Below are positions 5,896-49,694 of a DNA stretch of 64,000 bases, piece after piece. Both the position numbers and the translations under genes were made by a program. Location of the stretch: NCBI GenBank assembly GCA_900315545.1, contig OMZM01000006.1, positions 17,615 through 81,614 of the forward strand, written 5' to 3'. This DNA comes from an uncultured Prevotella sp. GTDB lineage: Bacteria > Bacteroidota > Bacteroidia > Bacteroidales > Bacteroidaceae. Below the pieces are notes generated by a model. That model did not search any database. It saw only the letters and a program-made list of their open reading frames with translations, and had not been told where the DNA came from. Position 1 is the first letter of the stretch, and each line of letters opens with the position of its first letter.

Positions 5896-6080
5896 ATCAT
5901 TTTTTCTGAGTTATAACTATTTTTGCCTCATTTTTATTTCCATTATTCGTTCTTATACCTATTATATATATACTCCGCTCCATGTCGGATGCGTCTGCCA
6001 TGTCTTTCTGCTGCCCACGATTATCGCTGCAGTCGGCACGGTTTTGTGCGCCAGAAGCACTTTGTGGCGAGAAAACATAT

Positions 6081-6525
6081 AATCAATTTTGCCTCATTTA
6101 CTGTCGCGAGAATGCCCGCGAAAGCCGCTTCTGAAATCTGAGGGGTAAAATACGCCCAAAATTCGCATACATTTGTAATTCTCTGACAATCAATCCGTTA
6201 CACACAAACACAAGTCTTATACGCAAGAAAAGTATATGTTAAAAAAGTCAAAGAGTATGTTTGACATTGTCAAACACACTGTTTGAGGGTATCAGACATA
6301 GTGTTTGGGGGTGTCGCACACTGTGTTCGGCAGTGCAAAAAAGGCGAAACAGGCATGTCAAAGGTACTCTTTGACAATTTTAACAGTTGTATCCGGTCTC
6401 GGAATTAACAAATATTTGCACTTTTAGGGGCTATATTTTTTCTATTTGGAGAGTTTTTCTCTGTCAAAAATTTTCATACTTTTTCAGTCCGAAAGAAAAA
6501 TCCGTTGAGTTTGGCACGGTTTTTG
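6081..6525 (+). repeat. Interspersed intergenic repeat, copy 1 (147-bp palindrome-bounded core at 6238-6384)
   Basis: This fills most of the 700-bp gap between tRNA-Arg and the fur-like gene. The core 6238-6384 is bounded by inverted 18-mers: GTTAAAAAAGTCAAAGAG on the left, with two mismatches to the reverse complement of CTCTTTGACAATTTTAAC on the right. Inside, 6248-6379 is six 22-bp periods. Units 1-4 follow TCAAA-N7-TTTGA-N5 with increasing decay, the fifth is unrecognisable, and the sixth (6358) is perfect. The flanks align without indels to copy 3 at 49244-49688, and in part to copy 2. No convincing coding frame. The rest of the gap (5838-6080) shows only the tRNA promoter box. Confidence 0.92.
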
Positions 6526-6536
6526 TAGGGAGTCGG

Positions 6537-15800: not shown

Positions 15801-15920
15801 CGCATGACAATGCTAAGACTTACCTCGCAAAAAATGGCTGGCAGATTTATAAAGATTTTTGCAAAATACGAAGGCAACGAGGCTGGAAAGAAACTCGTAG
15901 AAGCCAGACCAAAGTTGTAG
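15801..15920 (+). pseudogene. Decayed, internally deleted copy of the pckA 3' end
   Basis: Bases 15801-15840 match pckA around 14724-14772 (GCTAAGRCTTACCTCG and the GGCTGG that follows). From GGCTGG the match jumps to the pckA end at 14980-15063 and runs to a stop, encoding [18 protein letters not shown] then KKLVEARPKL against the intact [18 protein letters not shown] and [10 protein letters not shown]. The junction lies in GGCTGG, present at both pckA positions, so a deletion between short direct repeats explains the fusion. There is no start region or active site, so it cannot be functional. The hairpin after it may be the original pckA terminator. Confidence 0.9.
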
Positions 15921-15944
15921 ACTTATAATCAAAATACCCTTCTG

Positions 15945-16002
15945 AATACTCGCGTATTTGCGCACTTGAAACATCTTGGGCTCAAATATACGAGTATTTT
16001 GT
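15945..16002 (+). terminator. Hairpin terminator after the pckA remnant
   Basis: AATACTCGCGTATTTG (15945-15960) pairs with CAAATATACGAGTATT (15983-15998) with two mismatched or wobble positions, followed by TTTTG. Its position suggests it is the ancestral pckA terminator, now separated from the intact gene. Confidence 0.75.
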
Positions 16003-16020
16003 GTGCATTTTTATTCATCT

Positions 16021-16360
16021 GACATACAGCACGTTAGCCCTAAACACAAGCCATGTGTGCAAGAAATATGAGTGTTAAAATTGTCAAAGAGCATGTTTGA
16101 GATTGTCAAACACACTGTTTGAGGAGGTCAGACATAGTGTTTTGGGGTGTCAGGCATTGTGTTTTGCAGGGCAAAACAAACGAAATAGGCACCTCAAAGG
16201 TACTCTTTGACAATTTTAACAGTTGTTTCCCACTCGAAATTTCACATATTTTTGCACTTTCAAGGCATGTTCCGATTCTATTTTGCAACTTTTTCTCTGT
16301 CAAAAAAAAGTCACAAATCGCTTAAATTTTCCGCATCAAAAATTTTTGGCACACTTTTTG
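16021..16360 (+). repeat. Interspersed intergenic repeat, copy 2 (147-bp core at 16074-16220)
   Basis: The core is bounded by perfect 18-bp inverted repeats, GTTAAAATTGTCAAAGAG (16074-16091) and CTCTTTGACAATTTTAAC (16203-16220). The 22-bp periods run from 16084: TCAAA-N7-TTTGA, TCAAA-N7-TTTGA, TCAGA-N7-TTTTG, TCAGG-N7-TTTTG, a degenerate period, and TCAAA-N7-TTTGA at 16194. Left-flank homology to copies 1 and 3 is traceable for 53 bp before the core, collinear in all three. The right flank is traceable to a GGCAC-then-TTTTTG motif ending at 16360. The remaining sequence to 16590 shows only the promoter of the next gene. Confidence 0.92.
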
Positions 16361-16532
16361 CTGCGAAAACCACAAAATATGTTTCATGCAATGCGATTAT
16401 ATATATTATCCTTCACTCGGATTGCGACCAGATAAGACTTACAACCTATATATTTGCAAAGTAAATCAAAAAAAACATTCACATAGTTAGATTTTTTAAC
16501 AAGGGAAATTGCAATTTGTCTTGCATATCTAT

Positions 16533-28112: not shown

Positions 28113-28200
28113 TTTTACAGACCGTTTGTAATGCTTTTACAAGTGCTCTGTAATCTTTTTACAGATACTCTGTAATGATTTTACAAACGCCTTGTAAAAA
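28113..28200 (+). repeat. 22-bp periodic TTACA/TGTAA array, locus A (four units)
   Basis: Four exact 22-bp units start at 28113, 28135, 28157 and 28179. Each begins TTTTACA and carries TTACA-N7-TGTAA, and the last is altered at its second half-site (TTGTAA shifted by one). A fifth TGTAA follows at about 28203. Half-sites are inverted and lie about one helical turn apart. The core geometry matches the array at 40349-40436 and the 147-bp elements, but the flanks do not. The rest of the gap between metG and the glycosyltransferase gene (27704-28365) holds the small-RNA candidate and a promoter. Confidence 0.88.
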
Positions 28201-40315: not shown

Positions 40316-40436
40316 TTACAGGATTTTCAGAAGTATCTTGTAATTCGATTACAAGATACTTGTAACGGCGTTACAGACTGTCCGTCACGCTGTTACGGAG
40401 TATTTGTAACACCATTACAATCCGTTTGTAATTTTC
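40316..40436 (+). repeat. 22-bp periodic TTACA/TGTAA array, locus B (four units plus a half-site 33 bp upstream)
   Basis: Exact 22-bp units start at 40349, 40371, 40393 and 40415. Units 1 and 4 are TTACA-N7-TGTAA-N5; unit 2 has a decayed second half-site (CGTCA) and unit 3 a decayed first (TTACG). An extra TTACA at 40316 lies 33 bp (1.5 periods) before unit 1. The array sits just after the ABC exporter stop in a 328-bp gap that otherwise holds only a terminator. Flanks do not match locus A. Confidence 0.88.
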
Positions 40437-40568: not shown

Positions 40569-40613
40569 AAAACATCAATAGGCGACCCGAAAAAAGTCGC
40601 CTATTGATGTTTT
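40569..40613. terminator. Bidirectional terminator between the ABC exporter and the 1518-residue T9SS cargo gene
   Basis: Perfect 18-bp inverted repeat, AAAACATCAATAGGCGAC (40569-40586) and GTCGCCTATTGATGTTTT (40596-40613), between convergent genes. Confidence 0.92.
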
Positions 40614-49113: not shown

Positions 49114-49243
49114 CTATTTTAAATAAAATATATTACATATTGTATATTATTCCTGTATTTTGCATTTTACAACCAGTAAAACTTTATGCACGACTTTCCT
49201 CACTCATAACTGTGCCACCTTACCATTGTCGTGAAATAATGCT

Positions 49244-49688
49244 AATCATTTTTGGCTCGTTTACTGTCGCATGAGTGCCTGCGAAAGTCGTTTCGGAAAT
49301 AAAAGGGGCAAAATATGCCCAAAATTCGCGTGCAGTTTTAATTCACTGACAACCAGATTGTTATCATAAAATACACGACCTATGTGCAATAAATACGAGT
49401 GTTAAAATTGTCAAAGAGCATGTTTGAGGTTGTCAAACAGTGTGTTTGAGGAGGTCAAACATAGTGTTTGGGCGTGTCAGACACTATGTTTCGCAAGCCC
49501 GTTTTGGCGAAATGGGCAACTCAAAGGTACTCTTTGACAATTTTAACAATTATTGCCAGTCTGGAAATTAACAGAATTTTGCACATCCGACACCTATTCT
49601 GCATCTATTTTGCGAGTTTTTCCCTGTCAAAATTTTTCATACATTTTCGCGTTGAAAGAAAATTCTGACAAGTTTGGCACAGTTTTTG
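49244..49688 (+). repeat. Interspersed intergenic repeat, copy 3 (147-bp core at 49401-49547)
   Basis: Core bounded by perfect inverted 18-mers GTTAAAATTGTCAAAGAG (49401-49418) and CTCTTTGACAATTTTAAC (49530-49547). Six 22-bp periods from 49411: three near-perfect TCAAA-N7-TTTGA/TTTGG units, TCAGA-N7-TTTCG, a degenerate unit, and a perfect unit at 49521. Copies 1 and 3 are collinear over 445 bp with no net indel: the CTGTCGC motif lies 137 bp before both cores and the TTGGCAC motif 127 bp after both. It fills most of the gap between the LRR operon promoter and the terminator of the 647-residue gene. Confidence 0.93.
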
Positions 49689-49694
49689 CTGTAA

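Follow-up and report, generated by a model that had tools for sequence, protein, structure and literature searches.

Arrays of inverted half-sites with a 22-bp period, two half-site classes and an even spacing in the genome of an uncultured Prevotella

Introduction

The BIME/REP repeats of enterobacteria are, like the arrays described in this report, intergenic and palindromic, and their hallmark is a REP palindrome that goes with a RAYT transposase. REP is a defined sequence, whereas the arrays share a grammar that is free of sequence, namely 22-bp units, each with two inverted half-sites. Approximately 600 BIMEs have been proposed to split the E. coli chromosome into topological domains, of which they would be possible barriers, and even spacing is not described in the part of the review that deals with them (PMC6907758).

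Within the Bacteroidales, the BrickBuilt MITE of Porphyromonas gingivalis is also an intergenic dispersed element with internal short tandem repeats, and may be set beside the 447-bp element that carries the TCAAA/TTTGA class of the arrays. BrickBuilt has 23-nt direct repeats, 1 to 22.8 in number, rather than 22-bp units with inverted half-sites, and IS5-type terminal repeats such as GAGACCTTTGCA, whereas the present element ends with TAATCAATTTT and TTTGGCAC..TTTG; with repeat type and terminal repeats both different, the identification of the TCAAA element as BrickBuilt was rejected. Nineteen copies of BrickBuilt are reported, only in P. gingivalis and P. gulae, and neither an inverted half-site grammar nor even spacing enters the description of it in the portions drawn on here (PMC4596501).

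Sigma-54 promoters with NtrC-type sites recall the TCAAA element in that the latter has a perfect -24/-12 sequence at one end, but such a promoter is absent from the other array classes and its orientation to genes is inconsistent. The binding sites at transposon ends of the Mu/Tn7 type measure about 22 bp, as the array units do, but they are not known to form a strict 22-bp row of inverted 5-mers. A further likeness may lie in target immunity, which for Mu is described over 5-25 kb in the relevant part of the source (PMC7350765). A limited search of the openly licensed literature yielded no description of such arrays in Prevotella.

Array grammar and genomic setting

The window, i.e. the whole 64-kb stretch of DNA analysed, lies at C22:17615-81614 in a genome of 2,288,422 bases (2.29 Mb) in 56 contigs that is 92% complete, and contains five arrays of two half-site classes, to none of which a strand is assigned. 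The TTACA array at 40349-40436 is formed by the units TTACA-agatact-TGTAA-cggcg, TTACA-gactgtc-CGTCA-cgctg, TTACG-gagtatt-TGTAA-cacca and TTACA-atccgtt-TGTAA, in the exact register that the initial annotation had claimed, and the evidence overall is stronger than was claimed there. With a weaker fifth unit at its start, TCAGA-agtatct-TGTAA, which keeps the same register, the TTACA/TGTAA array comprises five 22-bp units at 40327..40431, with eight of the ten half-sites within one mismatch (seven exact, one with one mismatch and two with two). Nearby, at 40569-40613, a long inverted repeat lies between two convergent genes; it is likely a bidirectional terminator, separate from the array. The second TTACA/TGTAA array, at 28115..28197, has four 22-bp units, all intact. 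The TCAAA/TTTGA arrays of element copies 1, 2 and 3, at 6248..6374, 16084..16210 and 49411..49537, respectively, each have six units in register, of which three are intact. The claim of at least four units per array thus holds for the TTACA class (five and four units), and is generous for the TCAAA class, in which both half-sites are intact in only three of six units. Matches to TTACA-N7-TGTAA-N5-TTACA number nine in the window, whereas first-order Markov shuffling, repeated 20 times, never produced one. For the neighbouring ABC transporter, the best named homologues come from Prevotella multiformis, P. denticola and an uncultured Prevotella (63-65% identity), and the 15-18 kb around these homologues contain no TTACA-N7-TGTAA or TCAAA-N7-TTTGA unit.

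Genome-wide, a slightly looser TTACA pattern is found 72 times (0 for the reversed control) and the TCAAA pattern, when one mismatch is allowed, 766 times (2 for the control). The two classes have no long homology in common. The TTACA arrays listed in the genome are 33, of which 24 are free-standing and nine lie inside copies of the 447-bp element, where they replace most of the TCAAA array. By strict chaining, the free-standing arrays have four or five units in 20 of 24 cases, three in two and two in two. When their units were picked without regard to spacing, successive units were separated by 22 bp 55 times and by 44 bp six times, with no other distance below 60 bp.

The period is specific in a second species of the genus (genome G325), with 28 clusters at 22 bp and 0, 1, 0 and 0 at 20, 21, 23 and 24 bp, respectively. 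Inner gaps of 4-10 bp between the 5-mers also yield 16-31 clusters in that genome, which we ascribe to half-sites longer than five bases and to the presence of two dyad axes per period. Thus, of the rule initially put forward (5-mer, 7 bp, inverted 5-mer, 5 bp), the 22-bp period with inverted symmetry is a firm invariant, whereas 5-7-5-5 itself is only a convenient framing.

The agreement between TTACA arrays is 0.72-0.98 at half-site positions, a value due in part to construction, as units were chosen by their half-sites, and 0.27-0.35 at the free positions of the spacers, where 0.25 is expected at random. Replication slippage alone, the origin that the initial annotation had set against its own interpretation, is not supported for the TTACA class, given that the free-position likeness of units is 0.313 within arrays and 0.317 between arrays (p 0.61). 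A trace of common descent is detectable, with a best-register free-position identity of 0.500 against 0.486 after reshuffling (none of 40 as high), and three of 231 array pairs reach an identity of at least 0.7.

Covariation was evaluated for positions facing each other within the unit. In the TTACA class no covariation was found for pair 6/12 (52 vs 50.9) or for pair 8/10, while pair 7/11 covaries (59 vs 43.8, 0 of 2000 shuffles; with distinct units only, 41 vs 32.8, 66 of 2000). In the TCAAA class pair 8/10 is complementary in none of 105 units, with 36 expected, a result that can be explained by common descent of the copies. In G325, five pairs were compared across 121 CTYYN units and none stood clearly above shuffled values, the two stem pairs giving 59 vs 60.5 and 49 vs 61.4. 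An RNA stem is therefore mostly rejected by the pair tests, TTACA pair 7/11 excepted, and half-sites read one by one on DNA, possibly with a preference for symmetry, fit the data better. DNA binding is preferred to RNA hairpins because the TTACA spacers are nearly random, the units are not slippage copies and most pairs are without covariation.

The genomic setting was determined for 83 array loci, 24 from this genome and 59 of 60 from other genomes (L266 being left out), with gene calls from our own codon-usage script rather than a standard caller. The loci are mostly intergenic: 46 lie between co-directional genes, 21 between convergent and 11 between divergent genes, four are at an edge and one is called inside a gene.

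The 447-bp element carrying the TCAAA arrays

All three copies of the element in the window are on the + strand. Copy 1 (6080..6526) is 75-78% identical to the other two over 447 and 302 bp: two of the copies align over 447 bp at 75%, and the third over approximately 300 bp at 78%. For copy 2 (15915..16361), aligned over about 300 bp, the left end is deduced from the length, and for copy 3 (49243..49689), the reference for scoring the genome, the ends were obtained from an alignment of 31 copies (32 rows, of which one repeated the window copy and was dropped; copy 2, at 16 kb, is not included). The genome contains roughly 130-170 copies; comparison of copy 3 with it gave 169 first-look candidates, and the 40 of these that were scored were copy 3 itself and 39 others at 76-79% identity. 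In the alignment the element has sharp ends, judged by eye to be unlike inverted repeats of each other, a 19-bp inverted repeat that surrounds the array, and a right end whose core, TTTGGCAC..TTTG, is invariant in all 31 copies.

No target-site duplication was detected in these 31 copies: the longest word shared by the flanks averages 4.3 bases, against 4.4 with shuffled partners, and adjacent flank words of three or more bases occur in four copies against 3.6, although the copies are old and may have lost a duplication, and their ends are themselves deduced. Among 60 genomes of the genus the element is present only here, plus one half-copy in another, namely L067 of genome G005, the sole trace in the 59 other genomes, which is broken off inside its array. 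Neither 72,556 plasmid records nor 50,697 phage records contained a match to the element, and in viral contigs the TCAAA pattern was not found and the TTACA pattern gave one two-unit match, in AT-rich DNA.

Several details of the element may be recorded. The inner 7 bp of the second TCAAA unit (window 6270-6286 and 49433-49449, and other copies) read CACACTG in 19 and CAGTGTG in 11 of 30 copies, i.e. both orientations are found, as if a small palindrome flips. Many contigs of this genome (C2, C12, C16, C17, C18, C21, C22, C25, C36 and C56) begin less than 0.5 kb from a copy, and the repeat probably breaks the assembly at contig ends. Near the end of contig C18 (L170:6434-6681) there is a 27-bp tandem repeat of 8.7 copies.

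The right end carries, on the + strand, the sigma-54-like -24/-12 sequence TTGGCAC-N5-TTGC (49674-49689, also 6511-6526 and 16346-16361), to be compared with a consensus given as TGGCAC and TGC, 5-7 bases apart, in the relevant portion of a published account (PMC12316311). TTGGCAC-N5-TTGC is matched 98 times and TTGGCAC-N5-TTGT 41 times in the genome, with 0 and 1 matches for the controls, and the former reaches at most 18 matches per genome among 398 others of the genus. RpoN is encoded in the genome, as is a single clear enhancer-binding protein, which combines a Fis-type HTH with a sigma-54 interaction domain (218 bits); three further matches to the interaction domain (24-38 bits) are probably other AAA+ proteins, the profile also matching archaeal controls. 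Forty copies were examined, and for 39 a downstream gene was called: this gene is co-directional with the right end in only 24, while in the other 15 the right end points at the 3' end of a gene, so that it is not simply a gene promoter. Within 400 bp, no sigma-54-like site was found at any of the 24 free-standing TTACA arrays, and one at the 59 arrays of other species. Thus, a sigma-54 promoter accompanies the TCAAA element and not the arrays as a family, and a sigma-54 regulon as the general function of the arrays was rejected on account of the free-standing arrays without promoter and the mixed gene orientation. L214:1974-2190 of genome G163 is a TCAAAG-type array with a TTGGCAC-N5-TTGC site about 130-200 bp away, as in the window element.

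Spacing of the arrays in this genome

In the window the five arrays of the two classes are separated by 9.8, 12.1, 12.2 and 9.1 kb. Among the 6188 choices of five of the window's 17 intergenic gaps, the coefficient of variation (CV) of the intervals is as low in 0.4%, and no gap below 9 kb is found in 1.8%. A map of the genome was built from the right ends of the element (134 of 139 kept), the TCAAA arrays among the matches listed, the TTACA arrays, and four elements from gaps. The map is incomplete, and because marks less than 600 bp apart were merged, at least one genuine pair (C17 at 146.6-147.1 kb, within 0.5 kb) counts as a single site. On all mapped contigs it gives 171 sites on 51 contigs and 120 intervals, with a mean of 11.9 kb, a median of 11.1 kb and a CV of 0.39. 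An exponential null with the same mean has a CV of 0.99 (lowest of 5000 runs, 0.74) and predicts 41 intervals below 5 kb (lowest, 23), while 19 of the observed intervals are under 8 kb and four under 5 kb (1.4, 1.9, 3.3 and 5.0 kb), the close pairs counting against a lattice. On 14 contigs of known length (1.33 Mb), which happen not to include the three shortest intervals, the CV of 92 intervals is 0.36 against 0.91 for uniform placement, and 13 intervals against 45 are under 8 kb; the uniform null allows any position, while arrays use mostly intergenic DNA. An earlier, less complete site list had given a CV of 0.61 against 0.92.

The spacing is common to the two classes. Of 21 free-standing TTACA arrays that could be tested, not one was less than 5 kb from a TCAAA element, against 10.3 expected, and none of 20,000 simulations was as low (three of the 24 arrays were left out, either because their contig has no listed element or because the array is not listed). 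The notion that both classes are read or generated by one mechanism, advanced on the window alone, gains strong support from this shared comb. Recombination between near repeats would not explain the avoidance across classes because the classes share no long homology.

Four more TCAAA elements came to light in 20 gap stretches (332 kb), and the remaining sixteen contained nothing resembling either element, no array at threshold and no third class; gaps of about 15-29 kb without a detectable array count against a lattice. A half-site-blind scan followed by clustering, as originally proposed, was also performed. The detector scores each position for four or six 22-bp units with inverted 5-mers of any letters, the threshold in the scan of G325 being the maximum of six first-order Markov shuffles plus one. 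About a quarter of this genome (579 kb in all, the 20 gap stretches included) showed no third half-site class at a score unreached by shuffles, four AT-rich matches at 29-30 being near chance, and a third class was set aside on that coverage, whereas several classes emerged in the second species.

Arrays in other species of the genus

The two-half-site pattern was counted in 399 genomes of the genus, with 364 matches in the present one, at least 10 in 23 of the 398 others (e.g. G186, 114; G128, 71; G028, 58; G164, 49; G121, 46) and 0-2, the chance level, in most. The reversed control pattern is itself enriched in some genomes (G325, 133; G172, 115; G167, 50), and in G325 this reflects another class, AATTT-N7-AAATT with the spacer AACTT or AAGTT. 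Loci taken from twelve genomes show TTACA, TTCCA mixed with TTACA, TTACAC..GTGTAA, TTACAAAG..CTTTGTAA, TCAAAG..CTTTGA and other half-sites; the register is poorly kept in L266 and in the loci from G163. By scanning three whole contigs of G325 (902 kb) with the detector, 31 (four-unit) or 32 (six-unit) arrays were found, most of them far above threshold, whose classes include AATTT, TGGTA/TTACC, CTYYN, CTGCA and TTGNG. The idea of one grammar with several half-site classes, first suggested by the two in the window, is thus borne out by AATTT, TGGTA/TTACC, CTYYN, CTGCA and others in the second species and by further ones elsewhere.

In the same contigs the median spacing is 22 kb and the minimum 11.9 kb. 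A single interval falls below 12 kb, where about 10 would be expected, and none of 5000 random sets reached this minimum. The CV, 0.65 against 0.92 (p 0.013), is raised by two long gaps, one of 76 and one of 86 kb; these array-free stretches in an otherwise regular comb (C22, about 68.6-144.6 kb; C15, about 59.8-146.0 kb) speak against a lattice. On the first contig alone the CV test is marginal (p 0.04-0.08) and the minimum test gives 0.0002-0.0016. For the AATTT class taken alone, 13 intervals among the matches listed have a CV of 0.44 against 0.86 (p 0.0036). In 400 kb of G163 no clear comb was seen, its AT-rich DNA giving many marginal matches. A comparison of 20 own-other and seven other-other locus pairs with any protein match identified arrays beside the same gene in L022/L228, L038/L239, L015/L214 and L235/L252, too few to judge.

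With regard to the units themselves, in G325 CTTTN..CAATG units flank AATTT units in the same register, and an element in L242 is about 18 units long. Along many of the G325 arrays L232-L251 the spacer switches from AACTT to AAGTT once, as if at a point of inversion. The 5-bp spacer CAATG/CATTG is found both in the TCAAA arrays of this genome (window 6265-6269) and in the CTYYN arrays of G325 (L242, L244).

Interpretation

By taking these data together, the best reading, which we favour tentatively, is that the arrays are interchangeable multi-dimer binding platforms that organize the chromosome. Binding of the arrays by one or more putative proteins is strongly suggested. Such a sequence-specific protein would be bound as a row of dimers along one face of the helix, each 22-bp unit offering two inverted half-sites with centre distances of 12 and 10 bp, i.e. 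about two helical turns. Arrays with different half-sites would perform the same job, because the classes replace each other inside one element and occupy one comb. The job would most likely be chromosome organization, with the arrays as anchors or as barriers between domains whose size would be approximately 10 kb in this genome and 20 kb in G325. The nearly random TTACA spacers and the many spellings on one G325 comb speak for selection of this kind. On the other side stand the covariation of TTACA pair 7/11, the trace of common descent among TTACA arrays, and G163, with its lack of a clear comb. The likeness of the array spacing to the size of bacterial domains is only suggestive, and the relevant section of a review gives E. 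coli domains a size of 10-400 kb and describes their barriers as placed at random (PMC6907758). The wider proposition of a chromosome-wide lattice of architectural sites in bacteria of this genus, in which grammar and distance (about 11 kb here, about 22 kb elsewhere) would be kept while the letters are free and several spellings coexist, is put forward with more reserve. The interpretation given in the initial annotation, that of a family of arrays obeying one rule, is on the whole partly supported.

The main rival, which appears rather unlikely, holds that the arrays are transposase-binding sites of non-autonomous mobile elements and owe their spacing to target immunity. In its favour, the TCAAA element is a dispersed 447-bp repeat whose ends are sharp and whose array is enclosed by a 19-bp inverted repeat, and among 60 genomes of the genus it is nearly confined to this species. 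It looks more like a multiplied element than an array kept for function. Random sequential placement with a 7-kb exclusion reproduces the CV (0.37 vs 0.36 observed) and the intervals below 8 kb (12.7 vs 13), less well those above 18 kb (11.3 vs 8), and Mu cis-immunity, which peaks at about 5 kb and weakens between 5 and 25 kb according to the part of the study that bears on it, is a fitting precedent (PMC7350765). However, six of 92 intervals are below 7 kb, so that the exclusion must be soft, immunity would have to act between arrays with different half-sites, and the free-standing TTACA arrays differ too much to be near-copies of a single sequence. The 31 copies without target-site duplication also count against it, with the reservation that they are old and their ends deduced. 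The Mu-transpos_C domain (PF09299), expected of a Mu/Tn7-type transposase, had no match in this genome, nor in any of 14 control genomes, so that this search had no positive control.

The arrays have also been considered as upstream activating sequences of sigma-54 promoters, bound by the Fis-type HTH of an enhancer-binding protein, in which case the element would be a portable regulated promoter. This is improbable. The right-end matches (98 + 41 vs 1 in controls), its invariant core in 31 of 31 copies, and the encoded RpoN and enhancer-binding protein agree with it, as does the 5-7-5 spacing, which we take to equal that of the NtrC dyad, but the promoter site is near none of the 24 free-standing TTACA arrays and one of 59 elsewhere, 15 of 39 copies face the 3' end of a gene, and a single enhancer-binding protein cannot easily read several half-sites. 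Highly improbable are RNA hairpins acting as terminators or stabilizers in 3' regions: the mostly intergenic position, the 5-bp stem and 7-base loop possible in each unit and the covariation of TTACA pair 7/11 would suit them, whereas the other pairs tested do not covary, the 46 co-directional, 21 convergent and 11 divergent settings among 83 loci do not, and the 40.4-kb array has a separate long inverted repeat near it at 40569-40613. Equally hard to credit are neutral minisatellites born of slippage or unit duplication, which would account for the exact duplicates among some neighbouring units of the second species but not for TTACA units that are no more alike within an array than between arrays, nor for the strict register, the random spacers and the even spacing.

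Concluding remarks

If the reading of the arrays as chromosome-organizing platforms is correct, sites that share a grammar, differ in sequence and are evenly spaced would be direct evidence of a positional code in a bacterial chromosome, which is otherwise usually deduced from contact maps, and what sets the size of domains would become testable. If it was instead target immunity that placed the arrays, they would be a natural, genome-wide record of the range of immunity in vivo.
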